From Georgenia wutianyii (GTDB lineage Bacteria; Actinomycetota; Actinomycetes; Actinomycetales; Actinomycetaceae): a stretch of 64,000 nucleotides of DNA. The stretch spans positions 372,001 to 436,000 of the forward strand of contig NZ_CP040899.1 in NCBI RefSeq assembly GCF_006349365.1, given 5' to 3'. This document shows positions 10,552-33,801 of the stretch, piece by piece; position 1 is the first letter of the stretch, and every line of letters starts with the position of its first letter. The position numbers were made by a program, and so were the translations under genes. A model generated the notes under the pieces. The model did no database searches, was not told the origin of the DNA, and saw only the letters and a program-made list of their open reading frames with translations.

Positions 10552-11588
10552 GCGCGCCGACCCGGGACGCCCTCGCGCCCGCCCCGGTCGACGGCGCCCT
10601 CGCGAGCTTCTTCGCCGACGGCGCGGGCCACGGGGAGACCTCCGAGCACCGCGAGCTCTGGGACGCGCTGTCCCGGGCCGCCGAGGGTGGCAAGCGACTG
10701 CGCCCCGCCCTCTTCCACAGCGTCTACCTCGCGCTCGGCGGACGGCAGGGCGAGGTCGCGGCCCGGGTCGGTGCCGCGCTCGAGCTGCTCCACACGGCGC
10801 TCGTCGTCCACGACGACGTCATCGACGGCGACGACGTCCGGCGCGGCGTGCCGAACGTCGTCGGGGAGTTCTCCGCGCGCGCCCGCGAGCGGGGGCACGA
10901 GGAGCAGAAGGCCGTCCGCTACGGGCAGACCGCGGCCATCCTCGCGGGTGACCTCGCGCTCGCCGGTGCCGTGCGCACCCTCGCCCTGTGCGGGGCGGCG
11001 CCCGGGACGGTCGCCCGCATGCTCGACCTCCTCGACCGTGCCCTGCACCTGTCGGCCGCGGGCGAGCTCGCCGACGTCCGGCTGAGCCTCGACGGCGACG
11101 GCGACCTCGCCACCGTCGTGTCGATGGAGCACCAGAAGACGGCGGTCTACTCCTTCGAGCTGCCCGTCCAGCTCGCCGCCGCGCTCGCCGGCGCGGCGGC
11201 GGACCACGAGGCCGCCCTCACCCGCTACGCGCAGCTCGTCGGGGTGGTCTACCAGATCCGCGACGACCTCGACGGGATGTTCGGGGACGAGACGGTCACC
11301 GGCAAGAGCACGGTCTCGGACCTGCGCGAGGGCAAGTGCACCACCCTCATCGCCTACGCCCGGACCACCGCCGCCTGGCCGCAGATCGCGCCGGTCCTCG
11401 CGGCCGGCACGGCCGACGAGGCCGACGCCACGCGGGTGCGGACGCTGCTCGAGGAGTGCGGCGCGCGCACGTACGTCGAGGACCTCGCGGTGGACTTCAC
11501 CCGGCAGGCGCGCCAGAGCGTCGCCCACCTTCCCCAGGCGCCGCTCCTGGACGACTGGGCCCGGGCCGTCACCCGCGGGGCCGCCTGA
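10548..11588 (+). CDS. crtE: Geranylgeranyl diphosphate synthase
   Basis: Trans-isoprenyl diphosphate synthase condensing IPP units to GGPP, the carotenoid precursor and, in C. glutamicum, the inducer of CrtR. The first Asp-rich motif is DDVIDGDD at about residue 89, and the second is RDDLDGMFGDE about 150 residues later; GGKRLRP is the IPP-binding segment. The ATG overlaps the idi stop, and the stop shares a base with the crtB start (TGATG). Confidence 0.93.
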   Translation: MSAPTRDALAPAPVDGALASFFADGAGHGETSEHRELWDALSRAAEGGKRLRPALFHSVYLALGGRQGEVAARVGAALELLHTALVVHDDVIDGDDVRRGVPNVVGEFSARARERGHEEQKAVRYGQTAAILAGDLALAGAVRTLALCGAAPGTVARMLDLLDRALHLSAAGELADVRLSLDGDGDLATVVSMEHQKTAVYSFELPVQLAAALAGAAADHEAALTRYAQLVGVVYQIRDDLDGMFGDETVTGKSTVSDLREGKCTTLIAYARTTAAWPQIAPVLAAGTADEADATRVRTLLEECGARTYVEDLAVDFTRQARQSVAHLPQAPLLDDWARAVTRGAA

Positions 11589-12439
11589 TGCCTCTGCGCA
11601 GGACCCGGTACGACGACGCCGCGAGCCGCAGTGCCGCCGTCGTCATCGGGGTGTACTCCACGTCCTTCGGCTGGGCGTGCCGGCTGCTCGGCCCCGAGGA
11701 GCGCGAGCACGTGCGCAACATCTACGCCCTCGTGCGGGTGGCCGACGAGATCGTCGACGAGGCCGACGAATCGTGGTCCGTGGCTGACCGCCGCCGCATG
11801 CTCGACGCGCTGGAGGAGGAGACCGCCCGCGCGATCGCCACCGGTCGCAGCGCCAACCTCGTCGTCCACGCCTTCGCGCGAGCGGCCCGGCTCCACGGCA
11901 TCGGCGACGACCTCATCGCCCCGTTCTTCGCGTCCATGCGGGCCGACCTCACCGTCGACTCGCACGACGACGCCAGCCTGGCCGAGTACGTCCACGGCTC
12001 CGCGGAGGTCGTCGGGCTCATGTGCCTGCGCGTGTTCGTCGGCGGGGACGACGCGACCTACGCCCGCCTCGCGCCCGGGGCGAGCCGCCTCGGCGCCGCG
12101 TTCCAGAAGGTCAACTTCCTGCGCGACCTGCGCCAGGACCACGACGCCCTGGGGCGCACCTACTTCCCCGGGCTCGACCCGGCCGCGTTCAGCGACGCGC
12201 ACCGCGACGTCCTCCTCGACGACATCGACGAGGACCTGCGGGTGGCCCGTGAGGCGCTCCTCCAGCTCCCGCCGAGCAGCCGGCGGGCCGTGTGGCTCGC
12301 CCACGCGCTGTTCGGCGAGCTGTCCAAGCGGCTGCGGGCCACGCCCGCGGCCGAGATCCGTTCGCGCCGGGTCCGTGTGCCCGACGCCGTCAAGGCCCGG
12401 ATCGTGCTCCGGGCCGCCGTGTCCGGAGGACGCCGATGA
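11588..12439 (+). CDS. crtB: Phytoene synthase
   Basis: Squalene/phytoene synthase family enzyme joining two GGPP molecules to phytoene. The 283-residue protein has the first Asp-rich motif ADEIVDEAD and the second in NFLRDLRQD, both magnesium-diphosphate sites, and the expected small all-helical size. It is encoded within the overlapping carotenoid operon and followed by crtI with an ATGA overlap. Confidence 0.94.
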   Translation: MPLRRTRYDDAASRSAAVVIGVYSTSFGWACRLLGPEEREHVRNIYALVRVADEIVDEADESWSVADRRRMLDALEEETARAIATGRSANLVVHAFARAARLHGIGDDLIAPFFASMRADLTVDSHDDASLAEYVHGSAEVVGLMCLRVFVGGDDATYARLAPGASRLGAAFQKVNFLRDLRQDHDALGRTYFPGLDPAAFSDAHRDVLLDDIDEDLRVAREALLQLPPSSRRAVWLAHALFGELSKRLRATPAAEIRSRRVRVPDAVKARIVLRAAVSGGRR

Positions 12440-27155: not shown

Positions 27156-27231
27156 GCCCTCGTAGCTCAGGGGATAGAGCACCGCTCTCCTAAAGCGGGT
27201 GTCGGCAGTTCGAATCTGCCCGAGGGCACCA
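27156..27231 (+). tRNA. tRNA-Arg (anticodon CCT)
   Basis: Complete cloverleaf: acceptor GCCCTCG pairs with CGAGGGC, D arm GCTC/GAGC, anticodon stem CCGCT/AGCGG with loop CTCCTAA giving anticodon CCT, T arm GGCAG-TTCGAAT-CTGCC, and an encoded ACCA. The 3' part is the integration site of the adjacent element, which restores the tRNA sequence. Confidence 0.97.
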
Positions 27232-27232
27232 G
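27183..27232 (+). other. Left attachment site (attL) in tRNA-Arg
   Basis: A 50-base stretch from the anticodon stem to one base past CCA is repeated exactly at 32937-32986. It lies beside the integrase gene, as expected for attL of a tRNA-targeting tyrosine-integrase element. Confidence 0.95.
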
Positions 27233-27244
27233 TACAACTGCACA

Positions 27245-28342
27245 TCAGCGCGGCCTTACGGTCGTTGTGTCGTCTCGGGTCGGCGCCTCGGGTGCCCCCG
27301 GCGTGCCCCCGAAGGCGTTAACCAGCGCGAATCCCGCTCGGTCGGCGGCCGTCCCGAGGTAGTGGACGTAGACCTGCGTCGCGCTGATGCTCTCGTGACC
27401 GAGCCATGCCTGGACAGTTCGGAGATCGACACCCGCCCGCAGCCACTCGGTAGCCGCCGTATGCCGAAGATCGTGGATGGTGTGGCCAGGTGCGTAGAGG
27501 CTCCACTTCAAGGCACGGCGGAAGTTGCTCTTGTGGAGCTGGGCGCCTCGGCCCGTAGTGAAGAGGTAGTCACCGCCAGGACGTCCGTCGGCCATCTCGC
27601 GCACGAGCGGCCAAACCCGCATCGGTATCGGTACAGATCTGTTGGCCTTGCCCTTTGTGACCTTCTCTGCGTAGCCCTCGCTATGGGACCGCGAGATTCG
27701 AAGCACCGGCATGTCTCCTCCCACGACCGCGTCGACGCGGAGGGCGCGAGCTTCACCCCAGCGAAGCCCCGTCCAGGCGAGGATGCGCACCACATCGGCC
27801 ATCGCGGCATCGACCTTTTGCATCTGCTCGGTGACCAGGTCCAGCTCGGTCCACGTCCAGGGGCGCATCTCGCGAGGTGGTGCCCCAACCGAGCGCGAGA
27901 CTTTGACCCCGGCGACTGGAGACGCCAGAACGAGCCCTTCCCGCACGCACCAGGTCCAGAAGGCTGCGAGGGTGATGCGTGTGCGCTCAACCGTCGCGGT
28001 CGCGCCGATGACACGAGACAAGACCCGCTCTATGTCGGTCGGTTTGACGGAGCCGACCTGCCGCTGGAGAAGGGCCGCAGGCAGCCTCGAAGTCACCGAT
28101 GCGTCGCGAGCCCATGTTGACTGAGCGACACGACCTCGCCGGTGGTCGAGCCACTCGTCCAGAGCTTGGCGAACGAGCACGCGGCCTGCTCGCGGGTCAA
28201 CGAGCCCGTCGAGTGCCGCCCGCTGGCGGCGCTCCCATGCCTCGGCGTCAGCCTTTCGATCAAAGGTCCGCCCGGCGACATAGTTTCGCCCGTTCTTGAC
28301 GACCGCGCGCCATCGGCCTGACGACGTCTTGCGGATGCTCAC
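27245..28342 (-). CDS. int: Tyrosine recombinase (integrase)
   Basis: Site-specific recombinase of 365 residues integrating the element at tRNA-Arg. An Arm-type/AP2-like N-terminus (SGRWRAVVKNGRNYVAGRTF), core-binding SAM-like domain (about 55-150), and catalytic domain with Arg194 (TGLRWGEARAL), His290-x-x-Arg293 (HDLRH), His316 and Tyr325 (QVYVHY). GTG at 28342 has GGAGAAG upstream and overlaps the excisionase stop. The stop is only 12 bases from attL. Confidence 0.95.
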   Translation of the reverse strand: MSIRKTSSGRWRAVVKNGRNYVAGRTFDRKADAEAWERRQRAALDGLVDPRAGRVLVRQALDEWLDHRRGRVAQSTWARDASVTSRLPAALLQRQVGSVKPTDIERVLSRVIGATATVERTRITLAAFWTWCVREGLVLASPVAGVKVSRSVGAPPREMRPWTWTELDLVTEQMQKVDAAMADVVRILAWTGLRWGEARALRVDAVVGGDMPVLRISRSHSEGYAEKVTKGKANRSVPIPMRVWPLVREMADGRPGGDYLFTTGRGAQLHKSNFRRALKWSLYAPGHTIHDLRHTAATEWLRAGVDLRTVQAWLGHESISATQVYVHYLGTAADRAGFALVNAFGGTPGAPEAPTRDDTTTVRPR

Positions 28343-28566
28343 GCTGCTTCTCCGAGATGAAGGCTGCTTGCGGGGGAGTGGGAGGCGGCTGAGACCGACG
28401 ACTGCGAAACCCATGCGCGCACCTGGGTCTCGGAGTAGCGAGGGGTCCGCGCAGTGACCCAGATGACAGGCGGCCCTTCGCCGGTCTGACGGAGCCGGCA
28501 GAGGGTGGCCGCCGACACCTGGAGGTAGGCGGCCACCTCCCGCGTGGTCAGGAGTCGGTCACTCAT
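28339..28566 (-). CDS. xis: Excisionase-like helix-turn-helix protein
   Basis: A 75-residue protein with a MerR/AlpA-type winged helix: LLTTREVAAYLQVSAATLCR followed by a basic wing PRYSETQVRAWV. Small proteins of this type directly before the integrase act as recombination directionality factors. The ATG overlaps the upstream gene and its stop overlaps the int GTG, so the genes form one transcript. Confidence 0.82.
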   Translation of the reverse strand: MSDRLLTTREVAAYLQVSAATLCRLRQTGEGPPVIWVTARTPRYSETQVRAWVSQSSVSAASHSPASSLHLGEAA

Positions 28567-28921
28567 CGCCGAGCTTCTCGAGGAGTGCCTGGCGGCTCTG
28601 TTCGAGTCCCCTGATGACCTGGTGTTCATGGTGCAGTGCGGTTCGGAGGGACTCCACCTCCATCTCGAGCTCTCGGACGAGACGGTGGATAGCGCTCCTT
28701 GCGACAGCGAAGTCACCCCCGGCCTGCCGAGAGGCGTGGCCGTGAGCCTCAAACCGTGCCGTGTTGTACTCATCCACCGTGAGCCCCATGCTCGGGTCCT
28801 TCATCGCCTTCCACTCTCGCTGGCTGAGCGGCTGGGGGGCGAGCACCCTGAACCACACCTCCCGGGAGTGCGCGTGCAGCAGCTCGCCGACCAGCTGCGT
28901 CAGCTTCTCGTCCGTGGTCAC
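28559..28921 (-). CDS. Small hypothetical protein of the element
   Basis: A 120-residue protein of no recognised family. It has an N-terminal segment (TTDEKLTQLVGELLHAHSRE) and a C-terminal coiled-coil-like helix (VRELEMEVESLRTALHHEHQ) ending in acidic residues. GTG start overlaps the upstream stop (GTGA) and the gene overlaps xis. Cotranscription with xis-int suggests a role in excision, replication or maintenance; nothing more can be said. Confidence 0.65.
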   Translation of the reverse strand: MTTDEKLTQLVGELLHAHSREVWFRVLAPQPLSQREWKAMKDPSMGLTVDEYNTARFEAHGHASRQAGGDFAVARSAIHRLVRELEMEVESLRTALHHEHQVIRGLEQSRQALLEKLGDE

Positions 28922-29265
28922 GACTGCGACTCCCTGTGCGCGGAGACCGCGACGAGGCGCTCGACCGTGATGGAGAGCGCGACTCGCGAGTTGTTCTCGT
29001 ACGGCATGACCCAGACGCGGCCCTGGGCGGCGTACTTCTGCCCCAGCTCGTACCCGGCCTCGGCGGGCTCGACCACGTGGACAGACGCCGTCTTGTCCGC
29101 CTTGACCTCGCCACCACGCAGCGTCATCAGGATGGTGCCGCTCGCGTACGTCGGGCGGCCGTCCGGGGTCAACTTCCCCTCACGGAGGCGGGGCGTCTCC
29201 CCGAGTCCGATGGTGAGCACCGGCCACGCCTTCGCGTCCGTAGCCACGGGCAGGGCCGTCGTCAA
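28918..29265 (-). CDS. Hypothetical protein, first gene of the int-xis operon
   Basis: About 115 residues rich in beta strands (AWPVLTIGLGETPRLREGKL, TYASGTILMTLRGGEV, RVWVMPYENNSRVALSITVERL), with the appearance of a single OB-like or beta-barrel domain. The frame is open to an ATG at 29343, but the upstream part looks non-coding; TTG at 29265 with GGAG nine bases before is preferred. Comparable small proteins occur beside replication genes in actinomycete elements, but no family is recognised. Confidence 0.6.
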   Translation of the reverse strand: MTTALPVATDAKAWPVLTIGLGETPRLREGKLTPDGRPTYASGTILMTLRGGEVKADKTASVHVVEPAEAGYELGQKYAAQGRVWVMPYENNSRVALSITVERLVAVSAHRESQS

Positions 29266-29389
29266 CCTGGTGTTCTCCAAGGTTCTCTCGCTTCTTCTCC
29301 CCGAGGGGAGACGTAGGGTGCTGCGCTGACATCCGCGGCACATGTATGTAGGTGATCGCAGTGTGGCATGGACATCATTGCCTGGTCAA

Positions 29390-29406
29390 GCAGGGTGCTA
29401 CCCTGC
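29390..29406. promoter_or_regulatory. Inverted repeat operator before the element's regulator
   Basis: GCAGGGT-GCT-ACCCTGC, perfect 7-bp arms around a 3-base centre, ends four bases before the ATG of the small HTH protein and overlaps a -10-like TACCCT with TTGCCT 15 bases earlier. An autoregulatory operator is likely; the transcript would be nearly leaderless. Confidence 0.6.
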
Positions 29407-29410
29407 CTAG

Positions 29411-29779
29411 ATGACGAACTATCAGCAGTGGTCCGTCCTAGGTGGCGCGCCGGACGTCCTGAAGCTCGGCCTCAACGAAGTCGAAACCGCGCTAGGGCGT
29501 GCAGCGTCTATGCCGCCTGAGGTGTACGAGCACGCTCCGGGTGCTTACACCGTCAAGACGCTCGAACAGTTGCAGCAGGCGCAGCGCTGGCTTCAGTGGA
29601 CGGTCCGCGTCCTTGCTGACGAGGCGCTTACGCGCGAGACCGCATCTAGGCGAGGGCTGGCCGAAGCGGCGGGTGTTGCGTTCACTACGGTTCAAAAATG
29701 GAGTCGCGAGCCCATCTTGGAGGGGCCTGAAGGCGAGCTGGGGCCCGCAATGTTGCCCGATGGGCGTCGCCGCAAGTAG
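29411..29779 (+). CDS. Small DNA-binding protein of the element
   Basis: A 122-residue protein with a helical N-terminus and a C-terminal HTH (SRRGLAEAAGVAFTTVQKWS). It is divergent from the int-xis operon, with a perfect inverted repeat just before its start, an arrangement typical of an element's master repressor or copy control protein. No family name can be given. Confidence 0.7.
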   Translation: MTNYQQWSVLGGAPDVLKLGLNEVETALGRAASMPPEVYEHAPGAYTVKTLEQLQQAQRWLQWTVRVLADEALTRETASRRGLAEAAGVAFTTVQKWSREPILEGPEGELGPAMLPDGRRRK

Positions 29780-29943
29780 AACGCCAAAGAGCAGGACCTC
29801 TCGATGCGGGTCGGTGGCTCGGGTCAGGTCTCCCCGTAGGGGCAGGCTCGCTCTATCAGGCGACTCTCTTTCTGGGCACGGGATGCGGGGTGTCGCGTCG
29901 TAAGTCGAAGACAACGGGTAGTCGTGCGGTCTAGCGTGATCGC

Positions 29944-31338
29944 ATGTCACTTGAAAGTCTGAGGGCGGGACATCCGGTCGCTGCGCTGATCGTTGATGGG
30001 GCCCCAGAGACGCCCTTTGTGGCCGCAACGCTGGCGGTGTCAGCGTCTGGAATCGACCTCGATATTCCATTCCTCGATGCGAGGAGTGTGTCTGGCTTTG
30101 AGCACGTCGATGGCTGGCGCAGGACGGGCGTGCCTCAGAGTCTGCAGCTCCTCGTTCCAGGCGCGAAGGTCTCATTGTTCGACCTCCGATATGCCGGAGA
30201 AAATCTGCCGAGCGAGGGTGCATCGATCCTGATGGTGCGGGCGACTGAGGCAGTACTCGCTGGCCGCGATGGTCCCGTTTCGGATCCCCTGGAGGTCGAA
30301 ACGGTCCGGAGTCGCTTGGACGGTCTAAACGGCTGGTCCCAAGTCACCGCCGTGACGACCGATAGGGCAGTTGATGCGGAGAGCCGCGTGTATCGGTTGA
30401 CGGTGGTCGCTGAAACGGGCGACGGCGTAGTTTGGCGCCAGGGGGATGCCGAGATGGCGCTGCAGGCTCACTGGAGGACCGACAACCCCGGTGTGGGGGA
30501 CGAGCGTGCGCTCCTTATCGCAGACGATGTAACGCTGGAGACGACATTCGCCTCCCCCCGGCCATTCCGTGACCACCTCGTAGAGCAGCGCAAGATCGCC
30601 AATCTAATGGTGTTTATCTACGGCAGGTCAATGAGCTTCCGTCAGCACAAGGTGCGCGACGAGCGGTTTCCTGCGCGGCTCCTGAGTGGAGAGATCTATG
30701 ACATCCCTTACGTGGAGTTGGTCTCAGCACGCACCCTTGGTGAGGCGGCTTCGGAGCCGCCGACTCGGGAGGACTTGGCACGGCCTCTTGCGCTACTGCC
30801 CGCGATTGGTGTGGGTGGCCTGACACGCTGGGCGGAAGTGTATGACGAGTGGAAGCGGTTCATTCTTCCTGCAGTGAACTCGCTAGCTCGGCGCGGGGCG
30901 CTCATCGAGGAAGTTGTGATGTCGACGTCGACCGCCATCGAGGCGGCTGGTCGAAAGATTGGGAAGTGTGATGGTGAGGAAGGGACGTATAGCTCACGGG
31001 GAAAGGAGACGACTGCTACCTATTCGTACCGTTGTCTCAAAGTGCTAGACCTGCCATGGGGTGACTATGTGATGAGCCTCAGAGGGCTAGCGCAGGCCAT
31101 GGCGGACAACTACAACGAGCTTAAGCATGAAGATAGGGGCGACTTTCCTGATCCTCGCCAGAGTTACCTCATCGGACTAGTGAACAAGTGGGTCGTCCGG
31201 TTGTTGGCGTTGCGCTTGACCGGTTCGGACCACTTGATCGAACCGCATCGCTCAAGCGGTGCGCTCTGGCACATCACCCAGGCATTCGAGGCCAATCACC
31301 TCCGCACCCTCGAAAGTGGTGAGTGGGAGGCCTTTTGA
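29944..31338 (+). CDS. ApeA-like HEPN-domain protein, candidate anti-phage defence
   Basis: A 464-residue cytosolic protein with lower GC than the host genes. The N-terminal half is beta-rich with the SRLDGLNGWSQV segment and a mid-region PFRDHLVEQRKIANLMVFIYG, both characteristic of ApeA_NTD-type proteins. The C-terminal part is helical and ends in a HEPN-like helix containing YNELKH (residues 390-395) followed by PRQSYLIGLVNKWVVRLL. ApeA proteins are HEPN RNases giving abortive anti-phage defence. The classical Rx4-6H is not strictly met (Asn instead of Arg before the His), so nuclease activity is not certain. It stands alone on the element, as cargo would. Confidence 0.6.
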   Translation: MSLESLRAGHPVAALIVDGAPETPFVAATLAVSASGIDLDIPFLDARSVSGFEHVDGWRRTGVPQSLQLLVPGAKVSLFDLRYAGENLPSEGASILMVRATEAVLAGRDGPVSDPLEVETVRSRLDGLNGWSQVTAVTTDRAVDAESRVYRLTVVAETGDGVVWRQGDAEMALQAHWRTDNPGVGDERALLIADDVTLETTFASPRPFRDHLVEQRKIANLMVFIYGRSMSFRQHKVRDERFPARLLSGEIYDIPYVELVSARTLGEAASEPPTREDLARPLALLPAIGVGGLTRWAEVYDEWKRFILPAVNSLARRGALIEEVVMSTSTAIEAAGRKIGKCDGEEGTYSSRGKETTATYSYRCLKVLDLPWGDYVMSLRGLAQAMADNYNELKHEDRGDFPDPRQSYLIGLVNKWVVRLLALRLTGSDHLIEPHRSSGALWHITQAFEANHLRTLESGEWEAF

Positions 31339-31435
31339 CCCTTGGCGGCGAACGGCAGGGGGCGGTTCCCATCGGGCGCCAGTCAAGTGGCCGAAATCTT
31401 CATGAGTTTTCGAATTTCTCTATACAGAATCAAGG

Positions 31436-31522
31436 CCGGGGGTGCTGCGCACCCCCGGCGTGCGCCTCACCGGGGGGTTGGGTCGCGGGCTCCGTTGTCA
31501 CCCGCGACCCAACGCCCCCGGT
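31436..31522. other. Pair of strong hairpins in the element's largest non-coding gap
   Basis: Within the 339-base gap between two convergent genes, hairpin 1 (31436-31458) has perfect 10-bp arms CCGGGGGTGC around a 3-base loop. Hairpin 2 (31469-31522) has about 20 bp with one small bulge around an 11-base loop. They may act as terminators for the converging HEPN and rep transcripts, or as part of a single-strand or double-strand origin for rolling-circle replication. The rest of the gap shows nothing recognisable. Confidence 0.6.
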
Positions 31523-31677
31523 GGGACGCCCCTGACCAGTTCGTTGACGATCGGCTATGAGGGGGCATCCCGAACTGCCACCTGACGACGTCGGACGATG
31601 CCATAACCGCTTCGCTGGTCATGGCTTTGTCGCGCCTGTCGGCAGGATGGCACCTCGGGCGTGGGGTAGAAGTCCAA

Positions 31678-32826
31678 CTAGGGCAAGGCGGGAGGGCCAG
31701 TTCGCGGCGGCTGCAACGCCTGCCAGGTGGAGATCGAGTTGCCGATGCTCTCCGAGGTCGTGGCGAGGGTAGCGATGCTGGTCGTTTCCACTGGTAGCGC
31801 GGTGAATCTCTGCCGGAGTGCCCACGCCGCTCTCGCCGCTCGCTGAGCCGTACGGGTCAGACCAGTGAGGCTCCAGCCGGGTGAGGTCTCGCCGGTCTCC
31901 GCGTCTGTGGTGGGTCGAGAGACCGTTACGACGGCGGACGCTGCTCCCTGGCGTCTGTGCGCAGGCAGCGGGCAACCGGGGCGAGCCTCTGATGTCCCGC
32001 GGCCGCGACTACGGCTGAGACATGTCGGGCAGGGCATCAGGCTTGCCGCTCGGGATAGCCGAGCTGTCAGCTGCCAAGGCACGTTCGCAGCCGATCCATC
32101 AGCGACGGCTTTTCCGAGGTAGCTCAGTGCCTTGGTGACGTACCAAATCGCCTTAGCGGCATCACCGTCGGGCGTCAGCCGCCGCACGTCCACTTGGTTG
32201 CCCCAACGGACTCGCGTTCCTTCGTAACCTGTCGCTACCACAGACGCGAGAACGCCTCGCAGCTTTTCGCGCGGAGCCGCCTCAGACGCTGGGACTCGAA
32301 TAAGCACGTGATGGTGCAAGGCGCCGCGAGCTTGCCACTCACGGACGGACGCGAACTGCATGCGAGGCATCAGCACGCGGAGTCGAGACCGTGTTCGGTC
32401 CCAGAGGCGGCTCGAGTCCCTGTTCCATCGGACGGTTCCGTCGTAGTCGTAACCGTCCAAATCGACGGGTACGCCTCGGAGGTGGGAGTCCACATCTGAT
32501 TGGTGCACTACCCCGCATGAGCACCGCCGATTCGGCGAGCCGCTCGTTCGTGGAACTCGATGGACGCGGCCGAACGAGGGTGCGGTCAAGGTGACCATGT
32601 AGAACACAGAAGCACCCGGTGCCGCGAAGACGCCGGATCGTAGGATGGCGGCCCAGTCCCCGACTACTAGCTTCGAGCACGAGACGCATTGGTCTCGGAG
32701 TCTGCTTCCACAGCGCACCTGCTGCTCGGTGCCGTCTGGCATCTGTACGGTTACTGGCCGGGCGCAGCGGCGCTCCTCGCGGACGGCCAGCGCGAGGCGT
32801 TCGCTCGCGGAGAGATCGTCGATCAT
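31678..32826 (-). CDS. rep: RepSA-like rolling-circle replication initiator
   Basis: A 382-residue HUH endonuclease. A Cys-rich N-terminal motif (CVSC with upstream CG, residues about 39-50) and CSCG at 102-105 are followed by the HUH motif HHH at 171-173 (ALHHHVLIRV) and the candidate nicking tyrosines Y229 and Y236 in WYVTKALSYLGK. A second Cys cluster (CPTC) lies in the C-terminal half. This is the architecture of pSAM2/pIJ101-type initiators that nick the double-strand origin. The ATG start is about 110 bases from attR; no strong Shine-Dalgarno is seen. Confidence 0.88.
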   Translation of the reverse strand: MIDDLSASERLALAVREERRCARPVTVQMPDGTEQQVRCGSRLRDQCVSCSKLVVGDWAAILRSGVFAAPGASVFYMVTLTAPSFGRVHRVPRTSGSPNRRCSCGVVHQSDVDSHLRGVPVDLDGYDYDGTVRWNRDSSRLWDRTRSRLRVLMPRMQFASVREWQARGALHHHVLIRVPASEAAPREKLRGVLASVVATGYEGTRVRWGNQVDVRRLTPDGDAAKAIWYVTKALSYLGKAVADGSAANVPWQLTARLSRAASLMPCPTCLSRSRGRGTSEARPGCPLPAHRRQGAASAVVTVSRPTTDAETGETSPGWSLTGLTRTAQRAARAAWALRQRFTALPVETTSIATLATTSESIGNSISTWQALQPPRTGPPALP

Positions 32827-32936
32827 CGCGCCACATCCGTGTGCCCCCGATGTGCCCCGCCGGTGTCCGCCGGTGCAACCCGTGCACTATGAGTCCCCGG
32901 CAGTACCGGCAGAACGCTAAGGCGTCGACCCTGGGG

Positions 32937-32986
32937 CGCTCTCCTAAAGCGGGTGTCGGCAGTTCGAATCTGCCCGAGGGCACCAG
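32937..32986 (+). other. Right attachment site (attR), tRNA-Arg 3' fragment
   Basis: An exact 50-base copy of the 3' part of tRNA-Arg (27183-27232). It lacks the acceptor 5' strand and D arm and is not a functional tRNA. Confidence 0.95.
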
Positions 32987-33117
32987 GCGCGGACGTACCC
33001 TCCAGGAGGGGATGCGTCGTGCCGTGCGTGGTCGCCGTCGACGACGTCCGGCCGGCGGGCCGCTGAGTCCGGCGCTCCTCCCGGGTCTGCACCAGCACCC
33101 GCACCGAGGAGGACCGC

Positions 33118-33678
33118 ATGCGCACCGTGACGTACTCGATGGGAATGTCCGCGGACGGCTACGTCGTCGGGCCGGACGGCCGCTTCGACTGGGCGGCGCC
33201 CGACGCGGAGATCTTCGCCTTCCACCTGGAGGAGATCCGGCAGGTCGGGGTCCACCTCCTGGGCCGGCGGCTCTACGAGGTGATGCTCTACTGGGAGACC
33301 GCCGAGGAGGACCAGGAGCTCGACGACGCGGAGCGCGAGTGGGCCCGGCTGTGGAAGGCGCTGCCGAAGGTCGTCTTCTCCCGCACCCTCACCGCCGTGG
33401 AGGGCAGCAACACCCGGCTGGCCACGGGGACGGTCGCCGAGGAGGTCGCCCGCCTGCGCGCCGAGCCGGGGGAGGGGGACATCGCCATCGGCGGGGCCGC
33501 GCTCGCCGCGTCCGCCGAGGACCTCATCGACGAGTACCGCGCCGTGGTCTACCCCGTCCTCCTCGGCGGGGGGACGCCGTACTTCCCGCAGCACGAGCGC
33601 TTCGTGCGCCTCGAGCTCGCCGAGGTCCGGACGTTCGGCTCCAAGGTGGTCCACCACCGCTACCGGGCGCTGCGCTGA
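33118..33678 (+). CDS. Dihydrofolate reductase/RibD-C family protein
   Basis: A 186-residue YyaP-like member of the RibD C-terminal/DHFR family: TYSMGMSADGYVVGPDGRFDW at the N-terminus, LLGRRLYEVMLYW, and a late nucleotide-binding IAIGGAALAA. A GAGGAGG Shine-Dalgarno precedes the ATG. Members reduce unknown heterocyclic substrates with NADPH. It is the first chromosomal gene right of the integrated element. Confidence 0.85.
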   Translation: MRTVTYSMGMSADGYVVGPDGRFDWAAPDAEIFAFHLEEIRQVGVHLLGRRLYEVMLYWETAEEDQELDDAEREWARLWKALPKVVFSRTLTAVEGSNTRLATGTVAEEVARLRAEPGEGDIAIGGAALAASAEDLIDEYRAVVYPVLLGGGTPYFPQHERFVRLELAEVRTFGSKVVHHRYRALR

Positions 33679-33715
33679 GGCGGCGGCAGGCCAGTCTGCG
33701 CCCGATTTGTCGCCA

Positions 33716-33731
33716 CGTGACGAAGGTCACA
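33716..33731. promoter_or_regulatory. CRP/GlxR-like binding site
   Basis: CGTGA-N6-TCACA matches the TGTGA-N6-TCACA consensus at nine of ten positions. It lies upstream of the hairpin RNA candidate and about 190 bases before the large helicase-like gene. Confidence 0.5.
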
Positions 33732-33801
33732 CACAATCATGCGGACGTACAGGGTCGAGGCGCTTGCGCTCCGACGAAAGTTGGGCCAATATTTCTTCTT
33801 G

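Follow-up and report, generated by a model that had tools for sequence, protein, structure and literature searches.

Actinomycete integrative and conjugative elements (AICEs) of the RepSA type, i.e. the pSAM2 family, combine a tyrosine integrase acting at the 3' end of a tRNA gene with an Xis-like helix-turn-helix (HTH) protein, the RepSA initiator and a pC194-type origin, and pSAM2 is grouped with pC194 by its nick site in the available text of PMC3218068. The same text (Ghinet 2011) describes four Frankia elements that lack tra or rep as remnants or mobilizable elements. Here, we report on a 5.75-kb element, bounded by copies of an attachment site (att)-like repeat, in a 64,000-nucleotide stretch of the Georgenia wutianyii genome (NZ_CP040899.1, positions 372,001 to 436,000; hereafter the window, to which all unassigned coordinates refer). 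The element shares each of the above features with RepSA-type AICEs, but differs from them in its size, in the lack of FtsK/TraB and in carrying one ApeA-type cargo gene. Of the components by which AICEs are recognised, the integrase with its tRNA attachment site and RepSA are present, while an FtsK/SpoIIIE-type protein is absent. We consider that this is probably (at a rough probability of 0.6) a helper-dependent relative of the AICEs whose payload is defence.

Element boundaries and integration site

The original prediction, made from the sequence alone, held that a 50-bp repeat of the tRNA-Arg 3' end bounds an integrative element. Two exact copies spaced 5754 bp apart were indeed found, with int and xis-like genes between them, and the first copy overlaps the tRNA-Arg(CCT) gene, of which it represents the 3' end. 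With 50 exact bases positioned on a tRNA 3' end, an estimate of chance occurrence is needless.

27156..27231, + strand: tRNA-Arg(CCT), the integration site, identified by ARAGORN and free of the element in genomes G001-G004
27183..27232, no strand: attL, 50-bp exact direct repeat
32937..32986, no strand: attR, 50-bp exact direct repeat

The GC content is 64.7% inside the element as against 74.2% in the remaining window. In all four informative genomes of the same genus (G001-G004) the tRNA-Arg(CCT) gene is empty and joined straight to sequence matching window positions 33759-33763 onward, so the sequence is not always present among relatives, in agreement with the boundaries originally proposed; a fifth congener was uninformative, being 57% complete with the site divided between contigs. 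Similarly, neither an att repeat nor an integrase was detected beside this tRNA at 11 of 11 loci (four of the same genus and seven of the same family), surveyed in fetched stretches of 3.5-19.5 kb using exact 18-mer seeds and our own profile. The notion that tRNA-Arg(CCT) is a crowded hotspot in the family was dropped as all 11 sites were empty, although Actinomyces oris (A. oris) carries one element there.

The emptiness of all four informative congeneric sites favours a recent arrival. This, together with the identity of the att repeats and the apparently intact state of Int, Xis, Rep and the origin, speaks against the element being a decayed AICE remnant that lost FtsK, gained apeA, ceased to spread and is now inherited only vertically, an explanation that we regard as unlikely, although some of the relatives discussed below favour it.

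Two further features of the locus were observed. Positions 32987-33762, with a dihydrofolate reductase-like open reading frame (ORF), lie outside attR and are likewise absent from the four congeners; no third att was seen for this region, which we treat as separate from the element, and both insertion and loss are possible. The acceptor stem of the tRNA-Arg reads GCCCTCG/CGAGGGC in the window and GCCTCCG/CGGAGGC in the congeners, the change being paired on both sides.

Replication module and transfer functions

From left to right, the gene order is four minus-strand genes (int, xis, orf120 and orf141), then two plus-strand genes (reg122 and the ApeA-type gene) and lastly rep, again on the minus strand. 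The proposed HUH initiator of the RepSA type was verified, and a predicted origin, which the original prediction did not list, lies between rep and apeA.

31678..32826, - strand: RepSA-type HUH initiator (RepSA PF20199 4.7e-32; REP_ORF2-G2P 2.7e-7)
31419..31434, - strand: predicted nick region of the double-strand origin, CTTGATTCTGTATAGA, a motif common to compact elements
31435-31459 and 31472-31518, no strand: two strong hairpins adjoining the nick-like site (31400-31530 as DNA: z -8.7)

Rep holds the HUH stretch HHHVLIRV and the tyrosine motif WYVTKALSYLGK, and the integrase holds the tyrosine-recombinase stretches TGLRWGE, HDLRHT and LGH...Y, all of which we take to be catalytic. The cut would presumably fall at CTTG/AT. 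The origin pattern matched once in the 64 kb and not at all in shuffled sequence, a zero expectation that is not independent since the pattern was partly drawn from the window site itself.

A search with PF01580 across the whole genome returned four matches at three places, none of them within the window or the element, in accordance with the predicted absence of FtsK/TraB, and a hidden FtsK within the element bounds was on this basis dropped as a candidate. The matching open frames elsewhere in the genome are 1281, 1474 and 1122 aa long. Clustered 8-mers, as a possible TraB binding site, were found in neither the window element nor the A. oris element L062, clusters being confined to L124 and L117; in the latter, an FtsK-positive element, positions 11459-11660 hold a cluster of CCATGGGT repeats with 18-nt spacing, possibly a binding site for a transfer protein.

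At the level of sequence, the boundaries, the empty site, the gene set, the catalytic motifs of Int and Rep, the absence of FtsK and the ApeA family membership are established, and from these we infer excision, replication, transfer by a helper and defence activity as follows. Int, together with Xis, would recombine the 50-bp att sites, allowing the element to enter and leave tRNA-Arg(CCT), while RepSA would nick CTTGAT beside the hairpins and start rolling-circle copying of the circle. Control of the orf141-orf120-xis-int operon probably falls to the divergent regulator. As FtsK/TraB is absent from the element, spread between cells would call for a helper, for which an AICE or a plasmid of actinobacteria is the likeliest candidate. 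Finally, the ApeA-type payload may act as a ribonuclease (RNase)-type defence protein upon the entry of a phage or a competing element.

Transfer might alternatively proceed by packaging, with the circle or a rolling-circle concatemer transduced by a helper phage in the manner of phage-inducible chromosomal minimalist islands (PICMIs). Small size, int, a replication gene and defence cargo fit the PICMI plan as given in the available text of PMC10803314; however, the element has no recognisable gene for a capsid or for packaging, and scans of viral contigs (two with the small operon gene and one with Rep) yielded no relative, which makes a phage satellite a very improbable explanation.

The ApeA-type cargo protein

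The cargo gene was originally regarded as a probable HEPN gene of anti-phage defence. Its membership of an anti-phage family was confirmed by a match to ApeA_NTD1, and ApeA has reportedly been tested as an anti-phage gene.

29944..31338, + strand: ApeA-type protein (cargo), ApeA_NTD1 9.5e-8, 32.3 bits (cutoff 25.5)

No NCBIfam match was obtained for this protein. Relatives occur in 16 of 396 genomes of the order (Georgenia wutianyii counted), and among 10 scanned relatives ApeA_NTD1 was passed by eight, whereas HEPN_Apea lay above cutoff in two and below it in two more. The C-terminus aligns with these relatives, including the two that match HEPN_Apea above cutoff, and in 10 aligned rows K394, H395, E333 and R419 are invariant, with N391 present in at least nine. 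The available text of PMC3710099 gives the HEPN site as Rx4-6H and mentions families from which the R has disappeared, while its Table 1 counts the ApeA family among those retaining the motif. A single-sequence structure prediction of the protein (mean predicted local distance difference test, pLDDT, 33) was not used.

Deoxydinucleotide-specific nucleases adjoin AICE genes in 16% of cases according to the available part of PMC11706625, and it may be speculated that AICEs with such nucleases might blunt ApeA, provided that the ApeA trigger is right. An ApeA-like gene was also noted on a Pseudarthrobacter plasmid (L077), with TIR and caspase genes as well as a methyltransferase/DUF262 pair in its vicinity.

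Compact elements in Microbacteriaceae

Across the 396 genomes sampled from the order, 45 match the window Rep at 1e-8. In the family holding genome G340, a compact-Rep query at 1e-30 matched 18 genomes of a 398-genome sample, of which 13 carry FtsK-less elements, three FtsK-positive ones (L234, L235, L236) and two degraded ones (L115, L237); since the query favours the compact clade, 13/18 is no rate for RepSA elements at large. Five further FtsK-less elements (L124, L126, L130, L131, L133) came only from a scan of named genomes, which confirmed 552 places and of these gave the best 80 (L123-L149 were annotated first with our own profiles and all 80 later). In total, 18 FtsK-less Microbacteriaceae elements with a rep, cargo, origin and int plan were obtained, the absence of FtsK being judged by our own profile of eight FtsK proteins at E<=1e-3.

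Exact att repeats of 40-51 bp bound 16 of these 18 elements, while L125 has only 20 exact bases and L233 begins at a contig end. They reside in tRNA-Phe (11) or tRNA-Met (7), and 16 measure 3.1-5.4 kb, with L232 at 9.0 kb and L233 cut. In all 18 the origin motif, CTTGATCnTGTA...ATTTCGGGA, is situated on the flank of the cargo slot that faces int (13 by pattern, and five chosen by eye among many loose matches); a clear motif was present in two of 11 FtsK-positive elements scanned (L062 and L134). The window element shows the same plan, with rep, cargo, the CTTGAT origin motif, int, att and no FtsK, although its origin is placed differently.

For a Rep tree we chose 47 sequences, comprising 19 FtsK-less (the window included), 22 FtsK-positive and six of unassigned FtsK status. 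The 18 compact Reps form one clade (support 99/97). The window Rep lies outside it among FtsK-positive Reps, in a weak placement and with its highest identity (45%) to FtsK-positive L134, a position that would suit a decayed AICE; a single clade for all 19 FtsK-less Reps was nevertheless not rejected (approximately unbiased test, p-AU 0.194). A common origin of the window element and the Microbacteriaceae clade is therefore neither shown nor rejected. Purifying selection acts on rep in the compact clade (eight pairs with NG86 omega of 0.058-0.182, at dS of 0.27-1.68 with many values near or over 0.9), and the persistence of an entire FtsK-less clade with a selected rep speaks against mere decay. 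For int, omega was 0.19-0.52 in seven pairs.

Some individual elements showed further peculiarities. L224 (2937-7152), which is FtsK-less, has both att and rep, yet even with filters off it showed no integrase, a RhuM/Fic gene lying on that side. Tandem elements in one tRNA-Phe are suggested by a third att copy in L124 and L130 and by a degraded second integrase in L112.

Defence cargo across elements

The original prediction expected elements with a related rep but different cargo, as was seen among the 18 Microbacteriaceae elements. With the window counted, PADLOC models match cargo genes in 11 of the 19 elements at E<=1e-4; the scan took in part of the ORFs of all elements except L125 and L127.

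L112: DzbB, 1.5e-7
L124: NsnA, 1.9e-53
L126: HEC-04
L128: AbiU
L129: TIR-TM
L131: PDC-S66
L132: HEC-01A/B
L224: PDC-S23
L230: AriA/Old
L232: MTase_II
L233: PDC-S02, 9.6e-5

Matches by Pfam only, in the window (ApeA_NTD1) and L130 (DndB 4.8e-14; PADLOC 1.4e-4), raise the total to 13/19. Ten control genes from the flanks, one per locus, selected by codon GC and scanned with PADLOC, gave no match at 1e-4 (best JetC, 1.7e-4). Furthermore, L129 and L224 share 91.6% identity across a 1481-bp stretch that takes in rep, yet differ in cargo, and such near-equal backbones with unlike cargo indicate that the slot is swapped. Judging from these matches, elements of this kind frequently carry defence genes, and the FtsK-less ones seemingly more often than the others, though the numbers compared are small. 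By eye, the cargo of L229 (4599-5333), which has no Pfam or PADLOC match, contains a stretch, RHHLTHG, resembling the HEPN RNxxxH motif.

Several observations weigh against a defence-carrying, helper-dependent element. The ApeA-type protein matches nothing in PADLOC even when E values up to 1 are allowed and has no direct match to a HEPN model, HEPN_Apea is unmatched in its nearest genomic relatives (L063 and L064), and no arginine stands at H-5 to H-7 in the 10 aligned rows, leaving the canonical Rx4-6H arginine missing; the HEPN assignment, which relies on alignment with relatives that in two of 10 cases match HEPN_Apea above cutoff, is accordingly weaker than originally stated, and RNase action is a prediction. 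Cargo is of unknown kind in five of the 19 elements (L127, with DUF3467, L133, L223, L228 and L229), and L125 is without a cargo gene. Among FtsK-positive relatives, where 10 genes of eight elements were scanned, two elements gave defence matches at E<=1e-4 (L235 with AbiTii and a methyltransferase, and L234 with type I restriction-modification), and carrying defence genes is hence not peculiar to elements without FtsK. The PF01580 search also revealed no AICE elsewhere in the genome that would supply a TraB-sized FtsK, and this lack of a resident helper is equally in keeping with a remnant. Lastly, no close relative of the window element itself was found.

The deviating HEPN motif, and the fact that a single cargo gene rides on a replicating element, would also accord with an ApeA-type gene that chiefly serves the element, through exclusion of rivals or post-segregational stability rather than phage defence. 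The reported anti-phage testing of ApeA and the varied defence families in the slots of related elements argue in the opposite direction, and we judge this role to be quite unlikely. Returning to the helper-dependent defence carrier, similar tiny actinobacterial elements often carry other defence genes, and thus have the look of small couriers of bacterial immunity.

Operon genes and their relatives

The remaining genes comprise a single operon with stop/start overlaps and a divergent gene. Neither orf120 nor orf141 appeared in the original prediction, and the same applies to the predicted origin as a whole (31419-31518).

27245..28342, - strand: tyrosine integrase (Phage_integrase 1.2e-24), probably starting from a GTG at 28342 that overlaps the stop of xis; the longest ORF spans 27245-28414
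28339..28566, - strand: xis, excisionase-like HTH_17 protein (HTH_17 3e-8; phrog_66 excisionase 9.4e-9), ATG at 28566
28559..28921, - strand: orf120, small protein, placed by operon overlap, no Pfam match over cutoff
28918..29343, - strand: orf141, small plasmid/AICE protein, likely TTG start at 29265 (by eye against relatives)
29411..29779, + strand: reg122, probable regulator, divergent from the operon, by likeness to a G190 gene

For reg122 no Pfam family was matched, while a divergent small gene in G190 resembles it (34%, 1e-14). Matches to orf141 occur in six of 396 genomes of the order including Georgenia wutianyii, two of the other five being weak and with stops. Its relatives are found in A. 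oris, G167 and G190, and by tblastn on the plasmids pRE8424, pAN12 and Rothia amarae p3. Of the seven replicons in which orf141 has a clear relative, six carry FtsK (L060, L061, L062, L073, L074, L075) and L232 does not; the window element accordingly looks like the same kind minus FtsK and plus the ApeA-type gene, a likeness that also favours the remnant explanation. In A. oris, tRNA-Arg(CCT) is likewise occupied, by the 6.0-kb FtsK-positive element L062, whose 55-nt repeat copies are 96% identical. A structure prediction of orf141 from two sequences (mean pLDDT 35) was not used. Profile searches against the PDB gave only unconvincing matches (histones 0.06, regucalcin 0.075).

Comparison with known systems

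Elements resembling AICEs but lacking tra or rep are already known, and what is new here is a set of 18 FtsK-less Microbacteriaceae elements with mostly defence cargo. The available text of PMC3218068 draws no link to defence for its four Frankia elements, whereas here a conserved plan, an origin motif and defence cargo recur across many genera. Searched by title and the start of the abstract, a scope that excludes supplements, subscription papers and some preprints, the literature held no account of RepSA-type tra-less elements as defence carriers. A wider proposal, which we put forward tentatively and hold to be doubtful, is that Actinobacteria harbour widespread 3-6 kb satellites of FtsK-type conjugative elements which keep integration and rolling-circle replication without a transfer gene and bear a swappable, mostly anti-phage slot beside the origin; the window element would then be a second, separate line whose ApeA cargo guards the host against phages or the rivals of its helpers.

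The non-integrated rolling-circle plasmids pRE8424, pAN12 and Rothia amarae p3 have orf141 in common with the element, and the latter also a divergent small gene upstream of it, but they carry another Rep and FtsK. Integrative and mobilizable elements with relaxases resembling rolling-circle replication initiators, some of them without a coupling protein, are alike in being small, in pairing an integrase with such an initiator and in a predicted dependence on the FtsK-like protein of a helper (PMC5704250, available text); their initiators as given there are MobT, PF01719, PHA00330 and PF02407, unlike the RepSA found here in actinobacteria. If the proposed helper dependence is correct, it is testable, any FtsK-type AICE being a possible helper, and the slot between rep and int would be a simple place for seeking unknown defence systems (five of the 18 Microbacteriaceae slots are of unknown kind). 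PICMIs and P4-like satellites (PMC10803314, PMC9122126, available texts) are similarly minimal and combine integration, replication and defence cargo, while the window element differs in its RepSA rolling-circle module and in having no recognised packaging gene. If the proposed reading holds, actinobacteria would have their own equivalent of phage satellites and mobilizable islands, in which elements of a few kb move single defence genes across genera.

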